From Alkaliphilus sp. B6464 (GTDB lineage: Bacteria; Bacillota; Clostridia; Peptostreptococcales; Natronincolaceae), in contig NZ_CP058557.1 of assembly GCF_018141165.1 (NCBI RefSeq), forward strand, positions 2,108,001 through 2,172,000: a stretch of 64,000 bases of DNA. The letters run 5' to 3'. Positions 4,036 to 41,941 of this stretch are shown here, in pieces (the first letter of the stretch is position 1; each line of letters begins with the position of its first letter). Under the pieces are notes generated by a model, which was not told the DNA's origin, did no database searches, and saw only the letters and a program-made list of their open reading frames with translations. The translations under genes were made by a program, and so were the position numbers.

Positions 4036-4080
4036 CTGCAAAACCTTTATTCCCCAGTTCAAATCTGGGTGTCGCCTCCA
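4036..4080 (+). repeat. tRNA-Cys 3' fragment, prophage attachment core
   Basis: This matches the 3' part of a tRNA-Cys(GCA) gene: anticodon loop CTGCAAA, 3' anticodon strand ACCTT, a perfect T-arm (CCCAG, TTCAAAT, CTGGG), then acceptor strand and CCA. The 5' side is not tRNA: AAGAA replaces the AAGGT needed to pair with ACCTT, and no D-arm or 5' acceptor is present. A tRNA 3' end next to an integrase gene is the classic tyrosine-recombinase attachment site. It is not a functional tRNA. Confidence 0.8.
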
Positions 4081-4096
4081 AATAAATACAAAAATA

Positions 4097-4501
4097 TTAT
4101 TTTATTTTTTCTACTGCTTGGTTGAATAAATCAGCAGTAGATTTTTTTATATCTTCTTTTACATGAATATAAATATCATCCGTTGTACTTACTCTTGAAT
4201 GTCTTAGTCTTTTAGATATTTCCTGGCTAGATGCACCTAACTCAAATAATATAGTTGCATGGGAATGTCTTAGTGGTCTACCATCTTCCCAGCTACATAC
4301 AAAATCTAACTCTATTCCGGTTTTTAATTTGTGTTTTTTATATTCTTTATCTATTTGCTTTAGTTTATCCAGTAGATCGTTTGTCATAGCTACTGTGTCT
4401 TTTGAAGATTCGGTTTTTGGTCCTTCTAACACTGGACCCTCTTTTGTTTTTTCAACCATATCAGGAGATGTAGCATAGTCAACTGGATTTTTATCGATCA
4501 T
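4097..4501 (-). pseudogene. Tyrosine integrase with two internal deletions
   Basis: A 134-residue ORF retaining three separated pieces of a phage integrase: IDKNPVDYATSPDMVEKTKE (core-binding/linker), VLEGPKTESSKDTVAM through SWEDGRPL, and RHSHATILFELGASSQEISK to STTDDIYIHVKEDIKK with the nucleophile Tyr. The segment carrying catalytic Arg I is missing between the first two, and about 30 residues before the RHSH motif are missing. Upstream sequence still resembles integrase but has a TGA in frame. The gene ends 16 bp from the tRNA-Cys att fragment, so this is the dead integrase of that element. Confidence 0.8.
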
Positions 4502-6788: not shown

Positions 6789-6818
6789 AGGGTAGAGCTT
6801 AGGCTATACCTTTTTTTA
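6789..6818 (+). terminator. Cassette terminator
   Basis: GGGTAGAGCTTAGGCTATACC followed by seven T. Confidence 0.8.
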
Positions 6819-6838
6819 TTTTCAACATGAAATATAGA

Positions 6839-6865
6839 ACAGTTTATATGAAATTGCATAGTATG
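6839..6865 (+). promoter_or_regulatory. Sigma-K-like promoter of micro-gene 6949
   Basis: AC, 16 bp, CATAGTATG. This matches the late mother-cell consensus AC-N16-CATAnnnTA with one mismatch. It sits about 85 bp before the gene, as in the sister cassettes. Confidence 0.6.
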
Positions 6866-6948
6866 TATTACAACTAAGTATAGTCCTAAAAGGTAAATTA
6901 AGTTGTGTATTTAGCAGTACTTAAAATAAAAAAAGGTAGGTGTAATAC

Positions 6949-7143
6949 ATGGGCGGATGTGATAGAGGTTTTGGTGGTTTTTTTGGAAATCGAAGTAGCT
7001 TACTTTTCTTCTTCTTGATCTTAGTGATAATTTTCTGTAACAGTGGTATTTTTAAAGGATCAGGAGATAGCTTATTATTCTTCTTCCTATTACTTGTTGT
7101 ACTATTTTGTGGATGCGGACGTGAAGGATTCTTATTCTTCTAA
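6949..7143 (+). CDS. 64-aa Gly/Phe/Cys-rich hydrophobic micro-protein
   Basis: A short Gly-rich head (MGGCDRGFGGFFGNRSS) is followed by two almost identical hydrophobic stretches, LLFFFLILVIIFCN and LLFFFLLLVVLFCGCG, and a GREGFLFF tail. The two stretches could be two membrane helices or a stacked beta-rich coat element. The RBS is AAGGTAGGTG. Close homologues are at 8686, 9071 and 37683. The sigma-K-like promoter and dedicated terminator point to late sporulation in the mother cell; YjcZ-like sporulation micro-proteins are a loose analogy only. Confidence 0.75.
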   Translation: MGGCDRGFGGFFGNRSSLLFFFLILVIIFCNSGIFKGSGDSLLFFFLLLVVLFCGCGREGFLFF

Positions 7144-7162
7144 AAAGAAGATTAACAGAATT

Positions 7163-7192
7163 GGGGTAGAGCTTGGCTTTACCCTGATTTTG
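7163..7192 (+). terminator. Cassette terminator
   Basis: GGGGTAGAGCTTGGCTTTACCC then a T-rich tail. Confidence 0.75.
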
Positions 7193-7254
7193 TTTTTGAA
7201 GAATTTTAACAACTAAATTTAATGTTTTGGGGAGTGATAATTAGATAAAAATAA

Positions 7255-7270
7255 AAGCCCCTAAGGGCTT
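7255..7270 (-). terminator. Terminator for the minus-strand ORF 7288
   Basis: AAGCCC CTAA GGGCTT. On the minus strand it runs into TTTTATTTTT. Confidence 0.65.
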
Positions 7271-7287
7271 AAATCATTGCTACTATT

Positions 7288-7506
7288 TTAGATATTTTCT
7301 ACATCGTAGTATATACTATTAGATATTGAAGACACTCTAATTGTTCCATTTTTCATTAAATCAGTAGAAGTTTTTTTGGTAATCAAAAGCGAATTTTCAT
7401 TTATCATATGAATACGATATCTTGCAAAAATATATAAAAAAGGATTGATATATATCAAATTATTGTCAATATGAACAAATCCAGCTATTAAAATAAAATT
7501 GTTCAA
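7288..7506 (-). CDS. Hypothetical 72-aa protein
   Basis: A TTG-started minus-strand ORF just upstream of a good minus-strand terminator, which is the main reason to keep it. The sequence begins with a hydrophobic half and ends with RVSSISNSIYYDVENI. No family was recognised and the RBS is weak. Confidence 0.35.
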   Translation of the reverse strand: MNNFILIAGFVHIDNNLIYINPFLYIFARYRIHMINENSLLITKKTSTDLMKNGTIRVSSISNSIYYDVENI

Positions 7507-7570
7507 AATGAATCCTATGAGGTATTAGAAAAATATCAAAATTATTATCAGAAATTTCCCAAATTAATTT

Positions 7571-7747
7571 ATGGAAGATAGGTTGATTATGCAAAAACTA
7601 GCCTATAAATTAAAAGAAGTAGCTGAAATGCTAAGCGTAAGTTACTCAACTATATTTCGTATGGTTGAAAGGGGAGAAATAGCTACAGTAAAAGTTAGTA
7701 CTGTAAGAAGAATACCATTGTGGGAAGTAGAACGATTAGTGGGCTAA
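7571..7747 (+). CDS. Excisionase-family HTH protein
   Basis: A 58-residue protein (or 52 from ATG at 7589, which has AGG at better spacing). The core LKEVAEMLSVSYSTIFRMVE followed by RGEIATVKV and RRIPLWEVERLV is the MerR-like/excisionase (HTH_17) fold: helix-turn-helix, wing, then last helix. It is the first gene of a small cassette with the two broken genes at 7765 and 7939, the typical lysogeny-control region of Firmicute prophages. It could direct excision or bind DNA as a small repressor. Confidence 0.75.
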   Translation: MEDRLIMQKLAYKLKEVAEMLSVSYSTIFRMVERGEIATVKVSTVRRIPLWEVERLVG

Positions 7748-7764
7748 TAAAGGAGGATTAGGTT

Positions 7765-7928
7765 ATGAAAGAAAAAAATTAAAAGTCGCTATCGTTAACC
7801 CAGAAGCTATAGACGGAGCAAAGAAAAAATTTACAGAATGTGTTTTTAAAGCATATGAGAAAAAAATATATGAGGAATTAGAAAAATTAACTAAAGAAGA
7901 ACAGGACAAAAGCAAAATAGATGAGTAG
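7765..7928 (+). pseudogene. Frameshifted copy of the VNPEAI-type short phage protein
   Basis: ATG at 7765 behind AAAGGAGG runs into TAA after five codons. One extra A in the A7 tract (7772-7778) would restore MKEKKLKVAIVNPEAIDGAK through to the stop at 7926-7928. It is homologous to the intact gene at 3236. Either it is a pseudogene, or a poly-A slippage site keeps low expression. Confidence 0.65.
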
Positions 7929-7938
7929 AGGTGAAAAT

Positions 7939-8056
7939 ATGACGCTACAATAGCTTGAAGAACAAAGGCCAGCAAAGACACCTGTTATAGTAGCTGCTAA
8001 AATAATGCAAGTGACTCCGGGGTTTTTGCAGATGGGACTACAACAAGATATCATTA
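7939..8056 (+). pseudogene. Truncated phage DNA-binding protein with early stop
   Basis: ATG at 7939 gives MTLQ, then TAG, then LEEQRPAKTPVIVAAKIMQV and TPGFLQMGLQQ in the same frame. The latter resembles a small phage HTH family with RPA-TPVV-AA-MGV--FLR-GLQQG. The family's C-terminal half is lost where the terminator at 8071 begins. Confidence 0.6.
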
Positions 8057-8070
8057 TATATCATAAAAAA

Positions 8071-8130
8071 GAACCTCCTTGTGTTTGGTTTCTGGACAAA
8101 ACCATTAAACCACAAAGAGGTTCTTTTTTT
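8071..8130 (+). terminator. Long hairpin terminator
   Basis: GAACCTC...TTTGGT and ACCA...GAGGTTC arms with a T8 tail. It closes the early-gene cassette. Confidence 0.8.
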
Positions 8131-8184
8131 ATTGTTAAATTATTTCCAATGTCAATCTGTAATTATTTCTTTGACGCAACACTA

Positions 8185-8210
8185 GAAGCTTAGGCTCTAT
8201 CTTTTTTATT
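8185..8210 (+). terminator. Degenerate cassette terminator
   Basis: AGAAGCTTAGGCTCTATC plus six T. The 5' arm has decayed relative to the consensus. Confidence 0.5.
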
Positions 8211-8226
8211 TTTATCCAGATATATC

Positions 8227-8253
8227 ACAATCTATAGGTCATTTCATAATATA
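8227..8253 (+). promoter_or_regulatory. Sigma-K-like promoter of micro-gene 8336
   Basis: AC, 16 bp, CATAATATA: full match to AC-N16-CATAnnnTA. It is preceded by the conserved ATATC shared by most cassettes. Confidence 0.7.
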
Positions 8254-8335
8254 TATTAAAGCTACTAATAATTTTAAAACAGAAAGAAAGGCTGTATACA
8301 TAGTAGCAATTGAAATTGAAAAGGTGGTGTAACAT

Positions 8336-8491
8336 ATGAGTCAAAACGTTGAAAATAAGGGTTTATTTGGAGGCTGTGGTTGTGGTGGTTTTTTCGGAGG
8401 CGGTTTCATTTCCTTCATCTTTATAATTATTATAATATGTTTTGTATTTGGACTATTTGGACGTGAACGTAGATGCGGGTGTGGATGCTAG
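8336..8491 (+). CDS. 51-aa Gly/Cys-rich hydrophobic micro-protein (type 2)
   Basis: MSQNVENKGLFGGCGCGGFF is followed by a single Ile/Phe-rich hydrophobic segment (ISFIFIIIIICFVFGLFG) and a basic-Cys tail RERRCGCGC. The RBS is AAAGGTGGTG. The copy at 36957 differs at one residue only. Terminal Cys clusters suggest disulfide or metal cross-linking, as in spore-coat proteins (inference). Confidence 0.75.
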   Translation: MSQNVENKGLFGGCGCGGFFGGGFISFIFIIIIICFVFGLFGRERRCGCGC

Positions 8492-8524
8492 TTCTGTAAT
8501 TGTAAAAGACAAAAGAAATGTGAT

Positions 8525-8555
8525 TAGGGTAGAGCTTAGGCTTTACTCTTTTTTA
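8525..8555 (+). terminator. Cassette terminator
   Basis: GGGTAGAGCTTAGGCTTTACT followed by a T run. Confidence 0.75.
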
Positions 8556-8575
8556 TTTTCAACATAAAATATAGA

Positions 8576-8602
8576 ACAATTTATACGAAATTTCATAATA
8601 TA
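8576..8602 (+). promoter_or_regulatory. Sigma-K-like promoter of micro-gene 8686
   Basis: AC, 16 bp, CATAATATA; full consensus match. Confidence 0.7.
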
Positions 8603-8685
8603 TATTACAGCTAAGTATACTCCTAAAAGATAAATTAAGTTGTGTATTTAGTAGCATTTAAAATAAAAGAAGGTAGGTGTGATAT

Positions 8686-8889
8686 ATGTCTGAAATTGCT
8701 AAAAAAGGTGGAGGTTTTGGTGGTTTTTTTGGAAATCGAAGTAGCTTACTTTTCTTCTTCTTGATCTTGGTTATAATTTTCTGTAACTGTGGCCTTTTTA
8801 GAGAATCAGGAGATAGTTTGCTTTTCTTCTTCCTATTACTTGTTGTACTATTTTGCGGATGCGGACGTGAAGGATTCTTATTCTTCTAA
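8686..8889 (+). CDS. 67-aa Gly/Phe/Cys-rich hydrophobic micro-protein
   Basis: MSEIAKKGGGFGGFFGNRSS head, then the duplicated LLFFFLILVIIFCN and LLFFFLLLVVLFCGCG segments, ending GREGFLFF. Same family and cassette layout as 6949 and 9071; the segment from NRSS onward is nearly invariant. The RBS AAGGTAGGTG lies 8 bp before the ATG. Confidence 0.75.
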   Translation: MSEIAKKGGGFGGFFGNRSSLLFFFLILVIIFCNCGLFRESGDSLLFFFLLLVVLFCGCGREGFLFF

Positions 8890-8908
8890 AAAGAAGCTTA
8901 ACAGAATT

Positions 8909-8939
8909 AGGGTAGGGCTTAGGCTCTACTCTCTTTTTT
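8909..8939 (+). terminator. Cassette terminator
   Basis: GGGTAGGGCTTAGGCTCTACT followed by a T run. Confidence 0.75.
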
Positions 8940-8962
8940 ATTTATTTTGTATTAAAGATATC

Positions 8963-8989
8963 ACAGTTTATATGAAATTTCATAATATA
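8963..8989 (+). promoter_or_regulatory. Sigma-K-like promoter of micro-gene 9071
   Basis: AC, 16 bp, CATAATATA; full consensus match with ATATC upstream. Confidence 0.7.
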
Positions 8990-9070
8990 TTATAGCTACT
9001 AAAATTTTAGAGCAGAAAGAAAAAAGTTCTATACTTAGTGGTAATTAAAGTAAAAAGGCAGGTGTGATAT

Positions 9071-9262
9071 ATGTCTGAAATTGCTAAAAAAGGTGGTTTC
9101 TTTGGAAATCAAAGTAGTATGCTTTTCTTCTTCTTGATCTTGGTTATAATTTTCTGTAACTGTGGTATTTTTGTAGAATCAGGAGATAGTTTACTTTTCT
9201 TCTTCCTATTACTTGTTGTGCTATTTTGTGGATGTGGACGTGAAGGATTCTTCTTCTTCTAA
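9071..9262 (+). CDS. 63-aa Gly/Phe/Cys-rich hydrophobic micro-protein
   Basis: Third tandem member of the family: MSEIAKKGGFFGNQSSM, then two FFFL-rich segments and the GREGFFFF end. It has lost part of the Gly run seen at 8686. Its RBS is AAAGGCAGGTG, and it has its own promoter and terminator, so each cassette is a complete monocistronic unit. Confidence 0.75.
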   Translation: MSEIAKKGGFFGNQSSMLFFFLILVIIFCNCGIFVESGDSLLFFFLLLVVLFCGCGREGFFFF

Positions 9263-9282
9263 AAAGATGGGTTAACAGAATT

Positions 9283-9310
9283 AGGGTAGAGCTTAAGCTC
9301 TACCCTGGTT
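9283..9310 (+). terminator. Cassette terminator
   Basis: GGGTAGAGCTTAAGCTCTACCC, a perfect hairpin, with a weak T tail. Confidence 0.7.
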
Positions 9311-9405
9311 TATACTTTACAGTTAATTTAAATCGAATAGTTGGATCCCATTTGCTACTAAGCCCTAAGCTAGAAATTATTTCATAAGTTAAAGGTAAGT
9401 AGTTT

Positions 9406-9801: not shown

Positions 9802-10032
9802 ATGAAACAACACAATGATAAATATGCATGGGCTGTCAAGATAGGGGAAAAAGGACAATTTGTTATACCAAAGAAAGCTCGTGACATTTTTGATATCAAG
9901 CCAGGTGATACAATTATTGTACTTGCCGATAAAAAGAAAGGAATTGCTATTCCGCCAAAGTCAATGTTCGCAAAACTGGCGGAAACAGTTTTTGAGGGGG
10001 ATCTATCCGAAATGGAGGATGACTATGAGTAA
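9802..10032 (+). CDS. SpoVT/AbrB-domain transcriptional regulator
   Basis: A 76-residue protein. ATG at 9802 is preferred over TTG at 9796 because GAAAGGAGAG sits at proper distance. The swapped-hairpin AbrB fold is clear: IGEKGQFVIPKKARDIFDIK, PGDTIIVLADKKKGIAI. The short acidic tail (EGDLSEMEDDYE) overlaps the next gene by 8 bp, so it probably controls its own promoter and the glycosyltransferase. AbrB-type proteins bind DNA as dimers or tetramers, often in transition-state or sporulation control. Confidence 0.85.
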   Translation: MKQHNDKYAWAVKIGEKGQFVIPKKARDIFDIKPGDTIIVLADKKKGIAIPPKSMFAKLAETVFEGDLSEMEDDYE

Positions 10033-11206: not shown

Positions 11207-11321
11207 TACGATATGGGAATTCGAATGCTATTGAGAGTGTAATATAACTTTTAATCCATTACTCATGTAGGATTATGTCCAATTTACTGATAGTTGCCAA
11301 ATGACTCGTGATTGCGATATC

Positions 11322-11348
11322 ACAATTTGTAGATCATTTCATAATATA
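11322..11348 (+). promoter_or_regulatory. Orphan sigma-K-like promoter
   Basis: ATATC, AC, 16 bp, CATAATATA, the same motif as the micro-gene cassettes, but followed within 10 bp by a terminator hairpin and no micro-gene. A leftover of a deleted cassette. Confidence 0.55.
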
Positions 11349-32953: not shown

Positions 32954-33520
32954 ATGAGTCAAAAAAACAAAGTTTTAGTTAAAATAAATGGACAAGAATA
33001 TCCTATTGTCGGTGCTGAACCTAAAGAGTATTTATTAAAGGTAGGCAGTTTTGTGGATGATAATATGGAAGCTGTAGCTAAGGCTAATAAAAAACTTAGC
33101 ACTTCAATGATTGCTGTATTAACATGTATTAACATTACAGACCAATTTTTAAAGATGAAAAATAACTTTGAAGAGTTACAGAAAGAAATGCAATTACCTC
33201 AGGTAGAAATTGAAGAATTAGAAAAGTATATAGAAACTCTCCGTGACCAGTTAAAGGAAAAGGATGAAGCATACTTTAATCTTGAGAAAAAAATTGAAGA
33301 AATAGAATTACAGCAACAAGAGGATGAGCGCATAAAGGCACTAAACGATCAATTATTAGAGAAGGATGATGATTTGCAAAAAGCGCAAATCCTAATTAAT
33401 GACTTGCAGAATAAATTGTTTGATAATCAAATTAAACTAGTACAGGCAACAAAGGAATTAGAAGAATATATGGTGAAAAATGATTTAAAGAAAAATAATA
33501 GGGATTTTCGAGGAAAATAA
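32954..33520 (+). CDS. zapA: Cell-division protein ZapA, extended
   Basis: A 188-residue protein. Residues 1-85 are ZapA (KVLVKINGQEYPIVGAEPKE, YLLKVGSFVDDNM, STSMIAVLTCINITDQFLK); the rest is a long charged coiled coil (EIEELEKYIETLRDQLKEKD). ZapA bundles FtsZ filaments. The pheT-zapA-U32 order is common in Clostridia; here the U32 gene is pushed 5.9 kb away by the inserted element. Confidence 0.9.
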   Translation: MSQKNKVLVKINGQEYPIVGAEPKEYLLKVGSFVDDNMEAVAKANKKLSTSMIAVLTCINITDQFLKMKNNFEELQKEMQLPQVEIEELEKYIETLRDQLKEKDEAYFNLEKKIEEIELQQQEDERIKALNDQLLEKDDDLQKAQILINDLQNKLFDNQIKLVQATKELEEYMVKNDLKKNNRDFRGK

Positions 33521-33613
33521 CAAGGTTTGCTATGGAAAATAGAAAGTAGTGATATAATAATAATATCTCTAAAATTGCTTACAAACATTGAAATTGCTTA
33601 GTACACTATTGAA

Positions 33614-33640
33614 ACGTCAAAAGTTCGTCAAAAATAAATT
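33614..33640 (+). repeat. Left attachment repeat
   Basis: ACGTCAAAAGTTCGTCAAAA plus ATAAATT. It matches 39252-39278 with one G/A difference and overlaps the integrase stop by two bases. Confidence 0.85.
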
Positions 33641-34140
33641 AAAAAATAAAATTAACTGTATTCGTAGCTTTTTTTATCATATCTTCCGTTACATGAGAAT
33701 AGGTTTTTATGGTCATTTCCACATCATGACCCATGAGCTGGGCAACAGTTTTGAAATCTACTCCACTTGCGACTAGCATGGTCGCATAAGTATGTCTTAG
33801 ATCGTGCATAGTAACATCTAAGCCTTTATTATTTAATTTTTTATAAATTCTATAAGATACATTTTGAGGACTATTATCTAAAAAGATTCTATTTTTAATA
33901 TCTGTAGGATTGTTCTTTTTATATTTCAAAAGTGCATTTAATGTATTTTGAGATATAGGAACAGTCCTATTTGAATTTTTGCGTTTTACAGTACCAAATC
34001 CAAATGAGCCATCTTTTAATCTTTTCCATTGTTTGTTAACAGTTAACTTACTGTTTACTTCATCTACATCTCCCCAAGTCAAACCGATAATTTCACCAAT
34101 TCTTAATCTTAATCCACAAGTAGCAGCTATATTAAAAACA
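33639..34140 (-). pseudogene. Tyrosine integrase, C-terminal catalytic part
   Basis: The open frame is readable upstream beyond the TTG at 34082 to about 34140 (NIAATCGLRLRIGEIIGL), so catalytic Arg I, the LTWGDVD strand, HDLRHTYATMLVASGVDF, GHDVEMTIKTYSHV (nucleophile Tyr) are all present. The N-terminal arm- and core-binding domains are missing. Two extra residues (LR) interrupt the usual CGLRIGE motif. It was probably the enzyme that used the 27-bp repeats; now inactive. Confidence 0.85.
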
Positions 34141-34238
34141 GAAATTCGCTATAACAATATAGAAAATATGGTATAATTTTCTTGTTAGAATAGCGGGATT
34201 AGATGTAAGACGAGGCAATAAAGGAAGGGAAATTTATT

Positions 34239-34301
34239 ATGAAAATTTTAGGGATTATAAATAAGCTAATTCCAGAGAAAATGCAGATTAGTAAAGGGTA
34301 A
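34239..34301 (+). other. Very short ORF with good RBS
   Basis: MKILGIINKLIPEKMQISKG, 20 residues, behind AAAGGAAGGGAAA. It could be a start of a deleted gene or a peptide; no family seen. Confidence 0.25.
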
Positions 34302-34377
34302 GATTAAAAATGCGAGATAAAATGTATATTAGCCATAAAACAATAATAAAGCTATATAAGTAGGAGGACGATACCTA

Positions 34378-34764
34378 ATGAACTACAAAGAAAAAGTAAT
34401 AGCTCTATGGAATGACATGGATAAACAGAATTGGAGTGCTCTACATATATATTTTGAAGATGATGCCATAATTAACTGGAATAACACAAATGAAAGGTTT
34501 AATGTAGAAGAATTTGTAAGAATAAACGCTGAGTATCCAGAAGACTGGAATATTAAAATTGAACGCTTAGAATGTATTGAAAGTTTGGTTATTTCTGTTG
34601 TGAAAGTACAACTTAAAAATGGTGATATATCTGTTCACGCAACATCATTTTTCGAGTTTAATAACGGTAAAATAAAAGTATTGAATGAATACTGGGGGGA
34701 TGATGGAAAAGCACCAAAGTGGAGAATTGATAAACAAATAGGTAAACCGATTATATCTATGTAA
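34378..34764 (+). CDS. SnoaL/NTF2-like protein
   Basis: A 128-residue single-domain protein: KEKVIALWNDMDKQNWSALH, IYFEDDAIINWNNTNERFN, FVRINAEYPEDWNIKIERL. The helix-then-curved-sheet pattern is that of SnoaL-like polyketide-cyclase/NTF2 family members. RBS AGGAGGACG. It is cargo within the prophage remnant; ligand unknown. Confidence 0.7.
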   Translation: MNYKEKVIALWNDMDKQNWSALHIYFEDDAIINWNNTNERFNVEEFVRINAEYPEDWNIKIERLECIESLVISVVKVQLKNGDISVHATSFFEFNNGKIKVLNEYWGDDGKAPKWRIDKQIGKPIISM

Positions 34765-34861
34765 ATTATTTCGCAATTTCTTTTTTAGATGTAACGGTAG
34801 ATTTATGTGTCACTTTCATCTAGGCGTATTCTAATAAATTATATAGTAGGAGAGTTTGATA

Positions 34862-35047
34862 ATGGAAAAGGTAATATGGGTTAGAAGTAATGGAAAAATG
34901 CTAGGTGCAAAAGAAGATGACGGTTTAGATATCGTAAACAGGTATTTAGAAGAAGGCTGGAAAGTTAAGCATATATCTGCATGTGCTTTAGGCGAAAGCA
35001 TAAACGCAGGACAGGCATATATTGTTATTGAAAAAGATATTGATTAG
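34862..35047 (+). CDS. DUF4177-like small protein
   Basis: A 61-residue protein from ATG 34862 (RBS TAGGAGAG): KVIWVRSNGKMLGAKEDDGL, DIVNRYLEEGWKVKHISACA, then YIVIEKD. The pattern N.Y.EEGW.V..I resembles DUF4177-type proteins. Function unknown. Confidence 0.55.
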   Translation: MEKVIWVRSNGKMLGAKEDDGLDIVNRYLEEGWKVKHISACALGESINAGQAYIVIEKDID

Positions 35048-35120
35048 TATAATTTTTAAATATTTAATGTCGCATCATTTATATTAGATGTAATAACGAT
35101 AAAAATTAATAATTATTTAA

Positions 35121-35160
35121 AATACCGTATTATTCAGAAATGAATTGTGCGGTATTTTTT
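35121..35160 (+). terminator. Hairpin terminator before the RinA-like gene
   Basis: AATACCG..TTATTC / GAAT....CGGTATT stem with T6, near copy of 5040-5078. Confidence 0.7.
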
Positions 35161-35210
35161 ATGTGATAATCTAAGGTTTCTGTACAGATAAATTAAAAAG
35201 GGGGCATAAG

Positions 35211-35627
35211 ATGCTAGGGATAAAAACATATAAGGATCTACAATTAGAAAAGGAAATAATTGAGGATAGAATAGAACAATTAAAACAAAATCAAAAGCTT
35301 TTAGCCAAGGAACTAAGGGGTCCAGCACACATAACAGCTATAGATTACTCTAAGGATAAAGGTGTAGGGATAACTCCAAGACCATTAGAAGATGTACTAG
35401 CAGAAACAATGCAAATAGACAGTATGATTTTGTTAGAAGAAGAAAGATTAAAAAATACTGTTAGGACTATACAAAAGATTGATGAAAGATTACAACAGCT
35501 AGAGGGATTACATTATAAGGTGGCATACATGAGAGAGGTACAAAGAAAAACTCTTCAAGAAATAGCAGACGAACTGGGGTACTCACATCAGTATGCCAGC
35601 TGCACTTACCGAAGTGGGTTTTATTAA
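35211..35627 (+). pseudogene. RinA/ArpU-like phage regulator, truncated and fused
   Basis: Residues 1-127 are the phage late regulator, here with its sigma-region-4-like HTH start (KVAYMREVQRKTLQEIADEL, GYSHQY). At about 35590 the DNA jumps into the amidase gene in another frame, giving a spurious tail ASCTYRSGFY. The HTH recognition helix is cut, so DNA binding is doubtful. The 5' 300 bp match the copy at 5129. Confidence 0.75.
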
Positions 35628-35913
35628 TAATCCTATAGAGGAACAACTATTTAAAAATGATGAGTTTTTAGAGAAGGTAGCTGTAGGAATTGCAAAAGGA
35701 ATATTAGAGCATATTGGCATTAATTACATGCCGAAGGAGGATAAACCTATGGATACACCACAATAGAAAAAGGAAGGAATAGAGTACCTAGCAGAAAATA
35801 AATTAATGTCTGATCCAGAAGGATGGATTAAAAAAATAGACGGACCTATGCCAGTATGGGCAGGAACAATTTTACTTATGAATATACATAAGGATTTGAA
35901 AGGAGATAAGTAA
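35593..35913 (+). pseudogene. Phage amidase (endolysin), C-terminal part with nonsense codon
   Basis: MPAALTEVGFINNPIEEQLF is the C-terminal motif of Amidase_3 (the E is the catalytic Glu). At 35764 a TAG stands where TGG is expected (TPQ-stop-KKEGIEYLAEN), and the same frame then continues DPEGWIKKIDGPMPVWAGTI to a TAA that overlaps the holin ATG. The N-terminal half is absent; a matching N-terminal fragment lies at 6543. Confidence 0.8.
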
Positions 35914-36326
35914 TGAACTATAAAACATTTTATAATAGCTTAGTTGCTTTTTTAGGAACATGGACAACATATCTTCTTGGAGGGTGGGATGGCACATTGA
36001 AAATATTAGCTATTTTAATGGCAGTAGATTATATAACAGGATTAATGAAAGGATTTAAGAATAAGAACCTAGCAAGTGATATAGGTTTTAACGGACTAAT
36101 GAAAAAAGGTGCTATATTCCTAGTAGTAATATTAGCACACCAAATAGATATGATTATTGCTGTAGAGAATCCCATCTTTAGAACTATGGCAGTTTTATTC
36201 TATACAGCTAATGAAGGTATAAGTGTAACGGAAAACATAGCATTGCTTGGTGTACCTTTACCTCCTGGTATATTAGATGCGCTTAAAAAGCTAAAAGATA
36301 ATACAGAGAATAAAATGTTAGGATAG
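35913..36326 (+). CDS. Phage holin (toxin-secretion/lysis holin family)
   Basis: A 137-residue protein with three to four helices: GWDGTLKILAILMAVDYITG, LMKKGAIFLVVILAHQIDMI, then a C-terminal PLPPGILDALKKLKD. The pattern fits the phi-LC3/Cph1-type holins of Clostridium phages. The start overlaps the amidase stop (TAATG) and AAAGGAGA is the RBS. Intact, although its endolysin partner is broken. Confidence 0.85.
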   Translation: MNYKTFYNSLVAFLGTWTTYLLGGWDGTLKILAILMAVDYITGLMKGFKNKNLASDIGFNGLMKKGAIFLVVILAHQIDMIIAVENPIFRTMAVLFYTANEGISVTENIALLGVPLPPGILDALKKLKDNTENKMLG

Positions 36327-36357
36327 CTTGGGCTAGCTTTTTCTTTATTTTACAGTA

Positions 36358-36384
36358 ACACTTTTGTAAGCCTGTCATATACTT
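36358..36384 (+). promoter_or_regulatory. Sigma-K-like promoter of the 36449 gene
   Basis: AC, 16 bp, CATATACTT: CATAnnnT match with correct spacing, weaker at the last base. Confidence 0.5.
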
Positions 36385-36448
36385 GTATTGGGAAAGAAGC
36401 AAAGCAGTAAGCGACTTTTCTAATATAAAAAAGGGGAAGGCGAAAATA

Positions 36449-36808
36449 ATGGATTCTAGTCAAGAAATTAATACACAAAGATGCAACAATCCATGCAATG
36501 ATCCAATTAGGATAGGTGCGACATGTGTAGCTCAGATAGATGGAAGATTTTTCTTGATTATAGAAATTGAAATAGAAATTATGGGTTTTGTGAGGGAAGA
36601 AGTGATTATAATGGAGATATCGGCAGCTCAAGCAGTGGCGTTAATAGCATCAGGAGTTATGCGTTGTCAAATAGTTACCACAATTCCTCCAAGAGGAAAT
36701 CTTATTTGTGCATTTGTAGTAGGTCAAAATGCATTCTTAATATTTAATGTTGAAAATTCAACTGATCGTCTAGTTCTAGTTAGAGTACCTTTATGTACAA
36801 TTATTTAA
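36449..36808 (+). CDS. 119-aa hydrophobic protein, possible spore-envelope protein
   Basis: ATG at 36449 is preferred (AAGGGGAAGG RBS) over the upstream frame opening. The head is Cys/Asn-rich (NTQRCNNPCNDPIRIGATC), then beta-type repeats GRFFLIIEIEIEIMGFV and AAQAVALIASGVMRCQIV. There are four Cys and many Ile/Val strands, no clear signal peptide. The sigma-K-like promoter and neighbouring micro-genes suggest a late sporulation product. Family not recognised. Confidence 0.55.
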   Translation: MDSSQEINTQRCNNPCNDPIRIGATCVAQIDGRFFLIIEIEIEIMGFVREEVIIMEISAAQAVALIASGVMRCQIVTTIPPRGNLICAFVVGQNAFLIFNVENSTDRLVLVRVPLCTII

Positions 36809-36836
36809 TGAAAAAAATTAAAAGTTGAAAAATTTT

Positions 36837-36868
36837 AGGGTAGAGCTTAGGCTCTACCATTTTTTATT
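36837..36868 (+). terminator. Cassette terminator
   Basis: GGGTAGAGCTTAGGCTCTACC, perfect hairpin, then T6. Confidence 0.85.
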
Positions 36869-36884
36869 TTCACCCAGATATATC

Positions 36885-36911
36885 ACAATCTATAGGTAGT
36901 TTCATAACATA
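36885..36911 (+). promoter_or_regulatory. Sigma-K-like promoter of micro-gene 36957
   Basis: AC, 16 bp, CATAACATA; full CATAnnnTA match. Confidence 0.7.
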
Positions 36912-36956
36912 TATTACAGCTACTAACAATTTAAATTGAGAAAGGTGGTGTAATAT

Positions 36957-37112
36957 ATGAGTGAAAACGTTGAAAATAAAGGTTTATTTGGAGGCTGTGG
37001 TTGTGGTGGTTTTTTTGGAGGCGGTTTCATTTCCTTCATCTTTATAATTATTATAATATGTTTTGTATTTGGACTATTTGGACGTGAACGTAGATGCGGG
37101 TGTGGATGCTAG
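36957..37112 (+). CDS. 51-aa Gly/Cys-rich hydrophobic micro-protein (type 2)
   Basis: Near-identical twin of 8336 (Glu for Gln at residue 3): GGCGCGGFFGGG head, one Ile/Phe-rich segment, RERRCGCGC tail. RBS AAAGGTGGTG. Such identity between loci 28 kb apart implies recent duplication, gene conversion or strong constraint. Confidence 0.75.
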   Translation: MSENVENKGLFGGCGCGGFFGGGFISFIFIIIIICFVFGLFGRERRCGCGC

Positions 37113-37146
37113 TTCTGTAATTGTAAAAAGCAAAAGAAAGGTGATT

Positions 37147-37176
37147 AGGGTAGAGGAAAAACTCTACTCTTTTTTA
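37147..37176 (+). terminator. Cassette terminator
   Basis: GGGTAGAG GAAAAA CTCTACTC, same stem with changed loop, then T6. Confidence 0.8.
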
Positions 37177-37193
37177 TTTTGCATAGACATATC

Positions 37194-37220
37194 ACAATAT
37201 ATAATTTATTGCATAATATA
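37194..37220 (+). promoter_or_regulatory. Sigma-K-like promoter without a micro-gene
   Basis: AC, 16 bp, CATAATATA. The following terminator (37275) begins 55 bp later and no ORF is present, so it would yield only a short RNA of about 75 nt. Confidence 0.55.
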
Positions 37221-37274
37221 TATTACGGCTAAAGATTAAGCCTAGTGAACATCTGGCCTCACCTAACTTTAGGA

Positions 37275-37303
37275 AGGGTAGAGCATAAACTCTACTCTTT
37301 TTC
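37275..37303 (+). terminator. Cassette terminator
   Basis: GGGTAGAG CATAAA CTCTACTC, then a T-rich tail. Confidence 0.75.
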
Positions 37304-37322
37304 TATTTTGTATATAGATATC

Positions 37323-37349
37323 ACAATATATAATTTGTTTCATAATATA
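37323..37349 (+). promoter_or_regulatory. Sigma-K-like promoter of micro-gene 37417
   Basis: AC, 16 bp, CATAATATA; full match. Confidence 0.7.
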
Positions 37350-37416
37350 TATTACAACCAAAGATGAAGCCACTTATATATTGCACCTACTTAGTTTCAA
37401 AAAGGTAGTGAAATAT

Positions 37417-37482
37417 ATGTTTTCTTTAATCTTCTTAATTATTATATTATGTTGTGCATGTCGGCGCGAACGTAGATATTGA
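37417..37482 (+). CDS. 21-aa Cys/Arg micro-protein
   Basis: MFSLIFLIIILCCACRRERR ending in Y. One hydrophobic stretch, then a Cys cluster and a basic tail resembling the end of the type-2 micro-proteins (RERRCGCGC). RBS AAAGGTAGTG. It may be a natural minimal member or the remnant of a type-2 gene that lost its Gly/Cys head. Confidence 0.45.
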   Translation: MFSLIFLIIILCCACRRERRY

Positions 37483-37522
37483 CGCAGGCTTTGCGATTGA
37501 AAAAGATAAGGGGAACATAATT

Positions 37523-37552
37523 AGGGTAGAGCTTAGGCTTTACCTTTTTTTA
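37523..37552 (+). terminator. Cassette terminator
   Basis: GGGTAGAGCTTAGGCTTTACC, then T7. Confidence 0.8.
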
Positions 37553-37572
37553 TTTCCAACATAAAATATAGA

Positions 37573-37599
37573 ACAGTTTATACGAAATTTCATAGTATA
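37573..37599 (+). promoter_or_regulatory. Sigma-K-like promoter of micro-gene 37683
   Basis: AC, 16 bp, CATAGTATA; full match. Confidence 0.7.
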
Positions 37600-37682
37600 T
37601 ATTACAGCTAAGTATACTCCTAAAAGATAAACTAAGTTGTGTATTTAGCAGTACTTAAAATAAAAAAAGGTAGGTGTCATAA

Positions 37683-37886
37683 ATGAACGAAATTCTTGGA
37701 AAGGGTGGAGGTTGCGGCGGTGGCTTTTTTGGAAATCGAAGTAGCTTACTTTTCTTCTTTTTGATCTTAGTAATAATTTTCTGTAACTGTGGTCTTTTTG
37801 CAGAATCAGGAGATAGTTTACTTTTCTTCTTCCTATTACTTGTTGTACTATTTTGTTCATGCGGACGTGGTTTTTTCTTTAACTAA
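37683..37886 (+). CDS. 67-aa Gly/Phe/Cys-rich hydrophobic micro-protein
   Basis: Head MNEILGKGGGCGGGFFGNRS, then the two LLFFF-type segments; the end is changed to CSCGRGFFFN. Orthologue of the 6949/8686/9071 family in the second prophage locus. The leader before it is almost identical to those of 6949 and 8686. RBS AAGGTAGGTG. Confidence 0.75.
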   Translation: MNEILGKGGGCGGGFFGNRSSLLFFFLILVIIFCNCGLFAESGDSLLFFFLLLVVLFCSCGRGFFFN

Positions 37887-37906
37887 ATAGACAGACTAAC
37901 AGAATT

Positions 37907-37937
37907 GGGGTAGGGCTTAGGCTCTGCCCTGTTTTTT
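37907..37937 (+). terminator. Cassette terminator
   Basis: GGGGTAGGGCTTAGGCTCTGCCC, then T6. Confidence 0.8.
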
Positions 37938-38056
37938 ATGCATTTTTAAAATAAAACACCCCACAGAATTAGTTACAATCAAATTTTCTATATTTTTCAT
38001 GTCTAATTATTTATCATTCCTAAAAACTATATTATATATAGAAAGGAATGATTTGT

Positions 38057-38509
38057 TTGAAAAAAATAATATTTGTAGTCAGTTTATTAATTATATCATT
38101 TGTAAGTGGCTATTTTATTCATAAATATAGCTTTGAAATCAAGACACAATTAAGTCAAGATACCATTATACAAGAACCTAAACAAGAACTATATCAAGAC
38201 ATTTTTGTTACTTTACTTCTACCATTTATAGATAAAGCAGTAGAAGATTATTATGGATTATCATATAATGCTGCACCATATGATGTTGAAGTGCTAAGTA
38301 TCGAAAGACCTAATGGTTATCGTACATTTGTCTTTCAAATAAAACTTAAAGTAATGCCATATATAGGTCCGCATCTATATGTAGGAGAGGACCATATTAC
38401 AATTTCGCTGGAGTTAAATGAGGTTAAAGTTATAGAATTTAAACATGTTAAAAGCTATGAGTTACCTCCACGCTATAAACAGGTACACCCAATCCCGCAC
38501 GCAGAATGA
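38057..38509 (+). CDS. DUF3888-family exported protein
   Basis: A 150-residue protein. TTG at 38057 fits the AAAGGA RBS better than ATG at 38048. A signal or anchor helix (IIFVVSLLIISFVSGYF) is followed by the DUF3888 domain: LYQDIFVTLLLPFIDKAVED, YYGLSYNAAPYDVEVLSIER, PHLYVGEDHITISLEL. Known from spore-forming Firmicutes, function unknown. Confidence 0.75.
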   Translation: MKKIIFVVSLLIISFVSGYFIHKYSFEIKTQLSQDTIIQEPKQELYQDIFVTLLLPFIDKAVEDYYGLSYNAAPYDVEVLSIERPNGYRTFVFQIKLKVMPYIGPHLYVGEDHITISLELNEVKVIEFKHVKSYELPPRYKQVHPIPHAE

Positions 38510-38601
38510 CTATAATAAACTCTTTTGAACTCGTCGAAGTATTATATATCCAAATGATAATGAAATTGCTTAAATTAAATTTTAAAGGATCATATAATGC
38601 T

Positions 38602-38633
38602 AGGGTGGAGCTTAGGCTTTACCCTTATTTTAT
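38602..38633 (+). terminator. Cassette terminator
   Basis: GGGTGGAGCTTAGGCTTTACCC plus T-rich tail, start of the block duplicated at 24-643. Confidence 0.75.
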
Positions 38634-38732
38634 TCAAACCTATAGAATATAACTGACAGTTATATTTTGCTCTTTACACCGAACTAATGTTCTGGTAATA
38701 TATAATCAAGAACACACGTTTGGAGTGATGAC

Positions 38733-39212
38733 ATGGTAGATCAATCATTAAAGTACTCATTAAGTAACCATAAAGTAATAGAAATTATGTATATGAAAGA
38801 CTTAAAAATAACTCAAAGAAGAATTCAGGTATTAAAGATGGATAATGAAATAATAAAAGCCTTGGACATAGGTAAGGGACAATTAAGGACCTTTAAAATA
38901 GATAACATACTATCAGCAATAGATACAAAATTAATTGATAGTAGTGAAGGGACAAGGGGGGGGGGAATTATCATGCTAACTGAAAGGCAGATGGAAATTT
39001 TAAAAGCAATACATCAATATATGCAAGCTAATAGTATAAGTCCAACTGTAAGAAATATTAGAGATTTAGTAGGAGTAAAATCAAGTAGTACAGTACATGG
39101 ACATCTTACTGCTTTAGAGCATGAAGGATATATTACCAAAGTAGAAGGCAGTCCAAGGTCTATAGCTGTAACCAAAAAGGGAATAAGTGCACTAGAAGAA
39201 TATAAGAAATAG
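38733..39212 (+). CDS. WYL-domain / LexA-wHTH fusion regulator with poly-G joint
   Basis: A 159-residue protein. Residues 1-70 are the WYL-like domain (as at 130); 81-159 the LexA-type wHTH (LTERQMEILKAIHQYMQANS). A run of ten G at 38956-38965 links them in one frame as TRGGGIIM. In the sister copy at 130-604 the joint has only four G and the two parts are separate overlapping ORFs. An internal ATG at 38972 with a G-rich RBS could still give the wHTH alone. Either a real fusion, a slippage switch or a sequencing length error. Confidence 0.65.
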   Translation: MVDQSLKYSLSNHKVIEIMYMKDLKITQRRIQVLKMDNEIIKALDIGKGQLRTFKIDNILSAIDTKLIDSSEGTRGGGIIMLTERQMEILKAIHQYMQANSISPTVRNIRDLVGVKSSSTVHGHLTALEHEGYITKVEGSPRSIAVTKKGISALEEYKK

Positions 39213-39213
39213 A

Positions 39214-39246
39214 GCGATAATCTAATCAAAGACTATCGCTTTTTTT
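39214..39246 (+). terminator. Terminator of the WYL-wHTH gene
   Basis: GCGATAATC / GACTATCGC arms, then T7. Confidence 0.85.
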
Positions 39247-39251
39247 ATTTG

Positions 39252-39278
39252 ACGTCAAAAATTCGTCAAAAATAAATT
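39252..39278 (+). repeat. Right attachment repeat
   Basis: ACGTCAAAAATTCGTCAAAA plus ATAAATT; partner of 33614-33640. Confidence 0.85.
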
Positions 39279-39460
39279 TACTTTTATTTATATTCAGTTA
39301 TATTTGTAAAAATGATAAAATGTTAAAAATGTGTATTTTTAAATACTTTTTATAGTAATTGCTATATTTTTATATGTTATTTAGATATAATAATAATATC
39401 ACTACTTTTTATCTTTGCATAAAAGGTAGTATAAGAAAAGGATAGAAAGGTTGTTGAAAT

Positions 39461-41941
39461 ATGCAACATATTGAATTATTAGCACCAGCAGGTAGTTTTG
39501 AGGCTCTAAAGGCTGCTGTGCAAAATGGTGCTGGTGCAGTTTATTTAGGTGGTGTAGACTTTGGAGCTAGAGCTTATGCTTCTAATTTTGATAGAGATAC
39601 TATGAAGGAAGCTGTAGAATATGCACATATACGTGGTGTGAAAGTATATGTAACTGTAAATACATTAATGAAGGATAGTGAAGTTCAAAGTTTAATGAAG
39701 TACATAAAGTTCTTATATGAGATAGATGTAGATGCAGTTATAGTTCAAGATATAGGAGTTTTTAACTTAGTTAAAGAGATATTCCCAGACTTTGAGATCC
39801 ATGCAAGTACACAAATGACACTACACAACAAACATGGTGTAGAATTATTAAAAAGTATGGGAGTTGATCGAGCAGTTTTAGCAAGAGAGTTAACGGTCGA
39901 AGAAATAAAAAGTATTTACAATGAAATTGGTATAGAGTTAGAGGTTTTTATACATGGTGCTCTGTGTGTTTCTTATTCTGGACAATGTTTAATGAGTAGC
40001 TTTATTGGAGGTAGAAGTGGTAACAGGGGCCGTTGTGCACAACCATGTAGAAGAGAATATAGCTTGCTAAAATTAAATACAGATCAGCTTCTAAAGAGCG
40101 ATAAAGCATTTCATCTTAGTATGAGAGATTTAAATACTGTAGGAGAAATAGGTAGGTTAATAGATGCTGGTGTAACTTCCTTTAAAATAGAAGGTCGTAT
40201 GAAAAAACCACAGTATGTAGCTTCTATTGTTAGGGGTTATAGGAAAGCTATAGATATTTATTTGGACAATAGAAAAGTTTTACGAGATAAAGCCTTGGAA
40301 GAAGAAATGGAACAAATGTTTAATCGTAAGTTTACAAAAGGATATTTGTTTAGTAGTCCAAAAGCAGATGTAATTAATATTGAAAAGCCAAATAATCGGG
40401 GGCTGTATTTAGGGAGGATAGAGCATTTTGATGTAAGGGAAAATAAATTGAAGATTAGGCTAAATGTAGATATAGCTCAGGGAGATGGTATAGAAATATG
40501 GAACAAGTCTTCTGTAGATATAGGTGGTACTATTAGAAATATTTATATTAATAATAAATTAGTTAAATGGGCTAAAAAGGGCCAAGTAGTTGAAATAGAA
40601 ATGAAGGGTAATATACAAAAAGGTGATGAAGTATATAAAACCTTAAACATATCTTTAATGGATGAACTTGAAAGAACATATGCACATGATAAAGAACATA
40701 AAAAGATATTCATATATGGTGAAGTACAAATAGAAATTGATGAGAAAATTAAACTTCATCTATGGGATGAAGAAGGACATACTGTATATGTTCAAAGTGA
40801 TGATGTTGTTCAAAGAGCGATGAAGGTTCCTCTTACTGAGGATAAACTTTTAGAACAACTATCTAAATTAGGAAATACCCCTTTTGAGCTGTATAATTTA
40901 GATATTAGTTTAGAGGAAAATAGCTCTGTACCTATTTCTATATTAAACAGTTTAAGAAGGGACGCAGTAGAAAAGCTAGTGGATTTAAGAAAAACTAGAC
41001 ATAGTAGAGAAAAAACAGAAGATTTAAGGTTTACAAAAAAACTAGAAAGTCTTAAGATATCAAGTGAAAATCGAGATGAGAAAATAACTAAACAACAAAA
41101 AATATCTGTAAAATTAGATACATTAGAGCAACTAAAGGTGGCTTTAAATTATTCAATTAATCGTATTTATTATGGAGATATATCTACTCTTAAAGAAGCT
41201 ATATCATTATGTAAAGATAAAAATATAGAAATTTACTTAAGAACACCGTCTATACTAAAAGATAGTGAATATGAAATTTTAGAAAAGTTAGTAAAAGGAT
41301 TAAAGTTTGATGGAATTTTAGCTGGTGATTTGGGAATAATTAGGTTTAACGATACTTATTTAAAGCTCCCATTGATAGGGGACTTCTCATTAAACGTAAT
41401 GAATAGTTACACTATTAATTCCTTTGAAAAGCTTGGCTTAAGTGGAATTACACTGTCACCAGAGTTAGATTTCAAGACTATTTATAAGTTAAATCTAGAT
41501 AATGCATTAGAAAAAGAGGCGATTATATACGGAAAGACGACTGTTATGGTTACTGAGTATTGTCCTTTAGTTCAGGAAAACCAATGTGATCATAAATGCA
41601 GAGAATGTCGTTACCCTAAATATAAGTACCATTTTGGATTAAAGGATGCTAAAAACGTGACATTCCCAGTTGGAAAAGATTATTGGGGAAGAAGTACGAT
41701 TCTTAATTCAAAGCCTTTATTTATGTTAGATAAGCTAAATGATTTTAAAGACATTAATATAGGGTGGTTAAGATTAGAATTTACTGATGAAACTAATAGT
41801 GAGATAGAAGATATAATAGTAATGGCTTTAAGTAATATGAATAATATATTAACGGGCAAAAAATCAAGATATAGTGAAGACTATACTAATAAACTAAAAG
41901 ATGGATTTACTAGGGGACATTATTATAGGGGAGTAGAGTAA
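39461..41941 (+). CDS. Peptidase U32 family protein (RlhA-like) with DUF3656
   Basis: An 826-residue protein. The TIM-barrel U32 part begins HIELLAPAGSFEALKAAVQN and carries the signature EVFIHGALCVSYSGQCLMSS with RGRCAQPCR (Fe-S-type Cys) near residue 165-200. A DUF3656 insert and a second half with CPLV...C..KC..CRYPKYK follow. The E. coli long relative RlhA hydroxylates C2501 of 23S rRNA; a true protease role is doubtful. In the usual clostridial order it follows zapA. Confidence 0.88.
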   Translation: MQHIELLAPAGSFEALKAAVQNGAGAVYLGGVDFGARAYASNFDRDTMKEAVEYAHIRGVKVYVTVNTLMKDSEVQSLMKYIKFLYEIDVDAVIVQDIGVFNLVKEIFPDFEIHASTQMTLHNKHGVELLKSMGVDRAVLARELTVEEIKSIYNEIGIELEVFIHGALCVSYSGQCLMSSFIGGRSGNRGRCAQPCRREYSLLKLNTDQLLKSDKAFHLSMRDLNTVGEIGRLIDAGVTSFKIEGRMKKPQYVASIVRGYRKAIDIYLDNRKVLRDKALEEEMEQMFNRKFTKGYLFSSPKADVINIEKPNNRGLYLGRIEHFDVRENKLKIRLNVDIAQGDGIEIWNKSSVDIGGTIRNIYINNKLVKWAKKGQVVEIEMKGNIQKGDEVYKTLNISLMDELERTYAHDKEHKKIFIYGEVQIEIDEKIKLHLWDEEGHTVYVQSDDVVQRAMKVPLTEDKLLEQLSKLGNTPFELYNLDISLEENSSVPISILNSLRRDAVEKLVDLRKTRHSREKTEDLRFTKKLESLKISSENRDEKITKQQKISVKLDTLEQLKVALNYSINRIYYGDISTLKEAISLCKDKNIEIYLRTPSILKDSEYEILEKLVKGLKFDGILAGDLGIIRFNDTYLKLPLIGDFSLNVMNSYTINSFEKLGLSGITLSPELDFKTIYKLNLDNALEKEAIIYGKTTVMVTEYCPLVQENQCDHKCRECRYPKYKYHFGLKDAKNVTFPVGKDYWGRSTILNSKPLFMLDKLNDFKDINIGWLRLEFTDETNSEIEDIIVMALSNMNNILTGKKSRYSEDYTNKLKDGFTRGHYYRGVE

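Follow-up and report, generated by a model that had tools for sequence, protein, structure and literature searches.

Hairpin-bounded micro-genes with sigma-K-type promoters in prophages and prophage remnants of Tissierella

The window analysed here is a stretch of 64,000 nucleotides (positions 2108001 - 2172000 of contig C1 in G000, a genome of 3.86 Mb in two contigs), and its interval 36358 - 37937 contains an array of four units of the same build together with a gene for a protein of 119 amino acids (aa), all lying between zapA and U32 in a prophage remnant. It is probable that the array consists of late-sporulation micro-genes of the host, under the sigma factor sigma-K, that were captured by temperate phages of Tissierella, a name used here for G000 and its kin, G000 presumably belonging in or near that genus. 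The units are built alike: a sigma-K-type promoter and a ribosome-binding site stand before a tiny, hydrophobic gene rich in Gly and Cys, and a terminator hairpin closes the unit right against the promoter of the one that follows. The closest comparison is with G037, a sister species of the same genus in which long flanks are mostly 94 - 99% identical to those of G000. All positions are in window numbering unless a contig or locus is named.

The array and its promoters

The features of the array are as follows.

36357..36384, + strand: promoter-like site, degenerate, 5' of the 119-aa gene, with a -10 element unconserved in paralogues
36449..36808, + strand: gene for the 119-aa protein (AlphaFold2 model beta-rich)
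36837..36865, + strand: terminator hairpin (folding against shuffles)
36884..36911, + strand: sigma-K-type promoter (strict pattern)
36957..37112, + strand: type-2 micro-gene (t2), 51 aa, Gly/Cys-rich with a hydrophobic stretch; third-position changes prevail among five copies
37147..37175, + strand: terminator hairpin (folding against shuffles)
37193..37220, + strand: sigma-K-type promoter of the empty unit
37275..37303, + strand: terminator hairpin of the empty unit (folding against shuffles)
37322..37349, + strand: sigma-K-type promoter
37417..37482, + strand: minimal micro-gene, 21 aa, by eye like a shortened type 2
37523..37551, + strand: terminator hairpin (folding against shuffles)
37572..37599, + strand: sigma-K-type promoter
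37683..37886, + strand: type-1 micro-gene (t1), 67 aa, with two SLLFFFL-type hydrophobic stretches and Gly/Cys-rich ends
37907..37935, + strand: terminator hairpin (folding against shuffles)

An earlier note on this DNA had listed three micro-genes (36957, 37417 and 37683), the gene for the 119-aa protein (36449), five hairpins and six promoters. The genes are all present, and so are the hairpins (at about 36837, 37147, 37275, 37523 and 37907), which fold at -11 to -18 kcal/mol and in every case better than their own shuffles (z -3.7 to -4.8). The promoter count was too high, as four sites (36884, 37193, 37322 and 37572) fit the strict pattern [AC]AC[AG]-N15-CATAnnnT[AG] and one, at 36357, is degenerate, giving five promoter-like sites. 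For 1580 bases 0.013 strict promoters would be expected where four are present, and at least four were found in 0 of 3000 resampled sequences. The distance from the start of a hairpin to the start of the next promoter is 46 - 49 nucleotides (nt) in the window array, and the unit at 37193 - 37303 consists of a promoter and a hairpin without a gene (the "empty unit"). A scan of 33500 - 39500 against Rfam gave no match.

The sigma-K consensus of B. subtilis, as set out in PMC517825, has a five-base -35 element with C where that of sigma-E has T, a gap of 14 - 16 and a -10 element in common with sigma-E, whilst for C. difficile the -35 element is given as AC for sigma-K and ATA for sigma-E (PMC3789822). 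Judged by sequence, the cassette promoters fit the consensus of sigma-K, the late mother-cell factor, since the marks of a promoter of its regulon (a -35 element with AC, a gap of 14 - 16 nt and a -10 element of the CATAnnnTA type) were all found. Loci from 30 of the 44 genomes with a type-1 gene were scanned, one each, and after one (L047) had been dropped for want of an anchor a sigma-K-type site stood no more than 180 bases upstream of 25 of the 29 remaining type-1 homologues, that of G000 included, against 0.34 expected from shuffles. An extended form of the pattern occurs 17 times in the G000 genome and once for the reversed control; 16 of these occurrences are on contig C1, where 15 lie in cassette arrays. 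From their promoters, the micro-genes would be under sigma-K control. The exception on contig C1, at 11321 - 11348, is an orphan sigma-K-type promoter without a gene, 3' of a glycosyltransferase-like gene (9860 - 11206); at the orthologous place in G037 (L076) there is a promoter together with a type-1 gene.

Distribution of the micro-gene family

In G000 there are 12 matches to the type-1 family, spread over about ten places, so that the two separate integration sites proposed in the earlier note were an undercount. Over a 31-codon core of 16 homologues (120 pairs) there were 1624 synonymous and 464 non-synonymous codon differences, and by this measure the type-1 genes are under purifying selection. 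The five copies of type 2, summed over pairs, show 38 changes at third codon positions, 10 at first positions and none at second positions. Within the order the type-1 family was found in 44 of 148 genomes and SpoIVA scored over its cut-off in 67; SpoIVA is present in 41 of the 44 type-1-positive genomes (Fisher p 4e-15), and the three without it are 86, 81 and 76% complete. Occurrence in spore formers, as expected of the sigma-K regulon, was in this way found. A search across the phylum (299 genomes) gave strong type-1 matches in G000 only and single weak matches in eight other genomes (best E 2e-7), the latter being taken as chance hydrophobic similarity.

The array products of the window match no family in Pfam or NCBIfam, and homologues had no relevant match in NCBIfam (eight entries scanned, one protein among them twice). 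What emerges is an unnamed family of micro-genes, often multicopy, that recurs in SpoIVA-positive genomes of the order. No match in PHROG was obtained for t1, t2 or the 119-aa protein, the 21-aa gene lying outside that scan, although the neighbouring holin, ArpU-type and LexA-like genes do have PHROG matches.

Loci from other genomes, 19 of them hand-picked from the type-1 matches rather than drawn at random, contained the type-1 motif in 17 cases, and in 10 of these 17 the micro-genes adjoin an aspartokinase and/or a PHP-like gene, ten other genomes of the family being represented. Pfam identified the aspartokinase (AA_kinase and ACT domains), as well as a neighbour of Trp-repressor type, in single examples, other neighbours being assigned by eye or left unscanned; the PHP-like protein, which we take to be such from its motif, had no Pfam match at 1e-8. 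Fifteen other genomes of the family, one of which (G080) is of the same genus, were also compared with a single holin family, and none of the 76 type-1 matches listed (77 reported) was near a PF05105 holin, seven of the genomes having no holin of this family, two having the holin on the same contig at more than 340 kb and six on different contigs, where the distance is indeterminate. The earlier note had stated that its link with phages would fail if the cassettes were found mainly at fixed chromosomal loci without phage genes; in other genomes of the family this is nearly the situation encountered (10 of 17 loci), but within Tissierella the phage link holds.

Arrays in prophages and prophage remnants

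Two largely complete prophages of G037, completeness being judged by gene content, carry t2, the empty unit and t1 between the lysis genes and the right end, and the search suggested in the earlier note for a holin-cassette neighbourhood in complete prophages of related Clostridia was therefore positive in this sister species. Prophage 2 (C6:92667 - 134282, 41.6 kb) has at both ends exact 63-bp repeats that are the 3' part of tRNA-SeC, with an integrase open reading frame (ORF) of 276 aa, perhaps shortened, by the left repeat, and it also encodes a terminase (TerL), a portal, a 1045-aa tape measure and an amidase; an Amidase_3 gene and a BhlA-type holin were assigned in addition by similarity to scanned proteins of a G000 prophage region (L026). 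Its t2, empty unit and t1 start about 1.4 kb past the last gene on the lysis side, two short ORFs of opposite orientation intervening, and two ORFs and a LexA-like gene separate the array from the right repeat, just beyond which is a second integrase. Prophage 1 (about C6:220.7 - 258.2k) has a serine recombinase, terminase, portal, minor and major head proteins, an 827-aa tape measure, an amidase recognised from its sequence and a holin that shares 95% identity with the one in the window; its ends were set by gene content, the sole candidate attachment site (att) being a 13-bp repeat. Directly 3' of the amidase and holin come t2, the empty unit, t1 and DUF3888, after which the chromosome resumes with RarA and further genes. 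Of the strict sigma-K-type sites within the prophages, 3 of 3 in one and 3 of 4 in the other belong to the arrays, and in both the array would, on sequence grounds, form a transcription unit of its own within a largely complete prophage, as a lysogenic-conversion (moron) gene does.

The proposition that the cassettes are unrelated to phages, which leaned on the absence of a nearby PF05105 holin in other genomes of the family, was overturned by the prophages at these loci of the sister species (L070 and L071). A tree of type-1 sequences places both prophage copies amid Tissierella copies that had been labelled chromosomal or remnant, with the G000 copy at 620 kb as their neighbour, but the sequences are short and no weight is placed on single nodes.

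The zapA/U32 prophage remnant named in the earlier note is real though decayed, and the same order is found at the G037 site (holin, now frameshifted, then units, t1, a LexA-like gene and U32) with a shorter array. The remnant is thus older than the split between G000 and G037, and cassettes have been gained or lost since. Its right-hand neighbours recur, DUF3888 behind the array of prophage 1 and a LexA-like relative behind that of prophage 2. The features around the array, and those of the other remnant in the window, are these.

4036..4222, + strand: att-like repeat, the 3' end of tRNA-Cys and the end of an integrase gene (187-bp exact repeat)
6789..9311, + strand: first array of the window, with t1 at 6949, t2 at 8336, t1 at 8686 and t1 at 9071, and the same promoters and hairpins
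35211..35627, + strand: ArpU-type phage regulator (phrog_10157, E 1.1e-20) running into the tail of a truncated amidase (tail by eye)
35913..36326, + strand: intact holin (PF05105, E 3.1e-37; phrog_199)
38048..38509, + strand: DUF3888 protein (PF13027, E 1.1e-23; no PHROG match; a copy 86% identical in L070)
38602..38630, + strand: hairpin of the array type, 3' of DUF3888
38733..39212, + strand: LexA-like phage-type regulator (PF01726; phrog_3502), the last gene before U32

Over 103 residues the ArpU-type gene is 89% identical to 5129 - 5437. The other copy of the 187-bp repeat lies upstream of the window (L021), at a tRNA-Cys that is intact and accompanied by an integrase, and this by sequence places the first array in a tRNA-Cys-associated prophage remnant. 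G037 has the same tRNA-Cys, but without this 15.2-kb stretch.

Hairpins and the movement of units

The hairpin was found at 22 sites in G000 against 0 for the control (23 rows, one site having been scored on both strands). Between copies at different places identity extends up to or into the hairpins, and at the gatB site, where only the right part of the last hairpin stands in G000, t2 and t1 are present in G037, so that the junction lies within the hairpin, whether by gain or by loss. The holins of the sister species are followed by a terminator that is a hairpin of the same type, its first bases being the last codons of the holin; in the window this hairpin is degenerate, with the holin stop codon at its edge, and its folding does not surpass that of shuffles. 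Beyond Tissierella the micro-genes have terminators of many sequences, or none was found. The pattern of dispersal is one in which terminator hairpins seem to bound the units exchanged, and homologous recombination at the common hairpin is the preferred, though unproven, means by which units move. A search of G037 for an empty site found none.

Some hairpins of this type stand in phage regions without micro-genes. One is 3' of a Hol44-type holin in the G000 prophage region at C1:3343.8k (L026:7790) and another about 300 bases 3' of a GH25 endolysin-type gene in a probable prophage at C1:2981.8k (L025:7840). Eight contigs of IMG/VR hold the hairpin, and in two of them it stands, as judged by eye, before lysis-type genes. 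Two IMG/VR contigs, L099 and L100 (41.7 and 37.7 kb), have exact copies of the hairpin just 5' of lysis-type genes (by eye), in phages with no other relation to this array.

Contrary evidence and alternative explanations

Several results weigh against capture of sigma-K genes by phages. YabG, chosen as a positive control for sigma-K, had no match in five of five genomes, and the motif was found in 0 of 17 CotJ operons within 700 bases 5' of CotJB (0.87 expected), although the C. difficile counterpart of CotJ is described as sigma-K-dependent (PMC3789822); the genus thus offers no positive control for sigma-K. Of the SpoIVA-positive genomes, 26 of 67 are without the type-1 family. The tRNA-Cys site of G037 keeps about 100 bases of the integrase end, so that loss of the first remnant there is as possible as its gain in G000. 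The degenerate site 5' of the 119-aa gene reads CATA in the window and AATA in five of five aligned paralogues, which leaves that gene without the conserved -10 element of a sigma-K promoter. Finally, no phage with the array was found in IMG/VR or INPHARED, the searches with t1 protein being weakened by low-complexity masking. Scans of IMG/VR with A1 and A2 confirmed no relatives, with the hydrophobic DNA pattern the motif was absent from all of the 80 loci listed, the promoter pattern gave one viral contig with a chance match inside a gene, and the t1 motif was absent from the available flanks of all 24 viral contigs that have a related holin. When the array of prophage 1 was compared with phages, seven records gave matches of 32 - 39 bases (E 8e-3), which were taken as chance.

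As no public phage was found with the array, the units may have entered prophages after integration. In that case host cassettes would have landed in resident prophages by recombination at the hairpin with which phage lysis modules also end, the phages serving as landing sites rather than vehicles. This is considered unlikely. It would explain the hairpins by holin or endolysin-type genes without micro-genes (C1 positions 3343790 and 2981839), those before lysis-type genes (by eye) in two of the eight hairpin-bearing IMG/VR contigs, the junction inside the hairpin at the gatB site and the want of a free phage with the array in the viral searches. However, the array occupies the same relative place in four separate phage contexts (the two prophages, the tRNA-Cys remnant and the zapA/U32 remnant), and its right-hand neighbours recur, with DUF3888 in prophage 1 and the window and a LexA-like gene in prophage 2 and the window, and these observations tell against this explanation.

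It is very unlikely that the micro-peptides are holin-like factors for lysis of the mother cell, and that this is why an amidase and a holin are their neighbours. Hydrophobic stretches and the place beside lysis genes in Tissierella would suit such a role, but the hydrophobic runs are only about 14 residues long, at several sites the holin or amidase alongside is truncated or carries a frameshift, and in the 15 other genomes, with the draft-contig distances partly indeterminate and one holin family considered, none of the 76 listed matches was near a PF05105 holin. Least probable of all is that these are ordinary phage genes, lytic or lysogenic, without a role in sporulation; their location in prophages is set against the sigma-K-type promoters of 25 of the 29 homologues, the association with SpoIVA, the absence of PHROG matches for t1, t2 and the 119-aa protein and the recurrent chromosomal locus elsewhere. 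The promoters, the SpoIVA association, the aspartokinase/PHP-like locus (10 of 17) and the PHROG result likewise tell against the phage or generic lysogenic-conversion origin that the earlier note had put forward.

Possible role and relation to known systems

If host micro-genes were indeed captured by Tissierella phages, sigma-K would turn on all units together in the sporulating mother cell, as separate short transcripts, and the peptides would pass to the spore coat or outer envelope, probably being supplied to the spores of lysogens. A product that is a late mother-cell peptide, Gly/Cys-rich and with hydrophobic runs may well be a coat or outer-envelope component, an assignment that stops a little short of an even chance. 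In the wider family the genes lie at a recurrent chromosomal locus, and in Tissierella also in the region behind prophage lysis genes; the window array would represent the right-hand end of one such array-bearing prophage, now old and decayed, and the common hairpins seem to be where units are acquired, lost or copied from site to site. Movement from host to phage, transport in virions, the coat role and the function of the products are in each case what we infer. More speculative, and somewhat unlikely, is a "spore conversion" in which Tissierella phages carry and reshuffle a pool of hairpin-bounded sigma-K micro-genes, expressed in the mother cell only, that alter the spore around the prophage-bearing forespore and so reward carriage through dormancy.

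Prophage-borne sporulation genes as such are already known. The SP-beta prophage of Bacillus has sspC, a sigma-G gene for a spore protein that is treated under host conversion, and sprB, an excision factor with a mother-cell promoter (sigma-E/K), according to the accounts in PMC8270828 and PMC4191935. Phages of spore formers are enriched in homologues of host sporulation genes, including cwlC for mother-cell lysis (PMC10294663, PMC9429907), and it is on these two precedents that the kind is regarded as known. The likeness to sspC and sprB is that prophage genes are turned on by sporulation sigma factors of the host. However, in those accounts sspC is a forespore gene for a DNA-binding spore protein, whereas the present micro-genes are unrelated, stand in an array with sigma-K-type promoters and a hairpin to close each unit, and are carried at chromosomal loci too. 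The genes tabulated in PMC10294663 for phages of spore formers are regulators and cell-wall, DNA and metabolic genes, with neither small late structural genes nor sigma-K arrays in that table. In the literature searched, no description of sigma-K-driven arrays of micro-genes in prophages was found. The present arrays point to a contribution of temperate phages to the late mother-cell programme of the host, made through added genes whose promoters await the last sporulation sigma factor.

YjcZ is a very small hydrophobic protein containing Gly, and its likeness to the micro-peptides is that of a very small hydrophobic late mother-cell protein. The gene is among those that PMC517825 lists in the B. 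subtilis sigma-K regulon. Membership of the YjcZ family (TIGR01732, tiny_TM_bacill) was rejected, as none of three genomes scored over the cut-off and G000 had no match at E up to 1.

The 119-aa protein and further observations

Of 14 upstream regions in the family of the 119-aa protein, three have any sigma-K-type site (0.5 expected). The AlphaFold2 model of the protein (pLDDT 80) had no usable match in the PDB, the best being E 0.19 with Foldseek and Z 4.6 with VIA-align. Relatives occur in 3 of the 148 genomes of the order, and the named genomes with them are Tissierella sp. P1, T. simiarum and Clostridium sp. Cult3. At one other site the gene for a YhcN/YlaJ sporulation lipoprotein adjoins the 119-aa gene, which was counted in favour of a sporulation gene captured by phages.

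Three further loci were noted. At C1:2821.1 - 2822.0k of G000 (L024:9091 - 10045) three units with 94 - 98% identity to the window array stand without a holin about 4 kb from spoIVA, and they are probably the most recent copy event. At C1:620.4k of G000 (L016:8350 - 8700) t1 lies directly 3' of an apparently truncated gene of the 21-aa type and has no promoter of its own, perhaps through a deletion that fused two units. At L019:5544 - 5984 an IS200-like Y1 transposase (PF01797) adjoins an array with a truncated holin. Three similar genes were seen at L017:11456 - 12382, L022:6710 - 7540 and about 415 of L240, one of them weakly DUF7852-like (E 4e-4), and one copy is followed by the same type of hairpin and a gene that looks like spmA. 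A short gene of L019 is similar to the beginning of the YhcN/YlaJ-type gene in L017.

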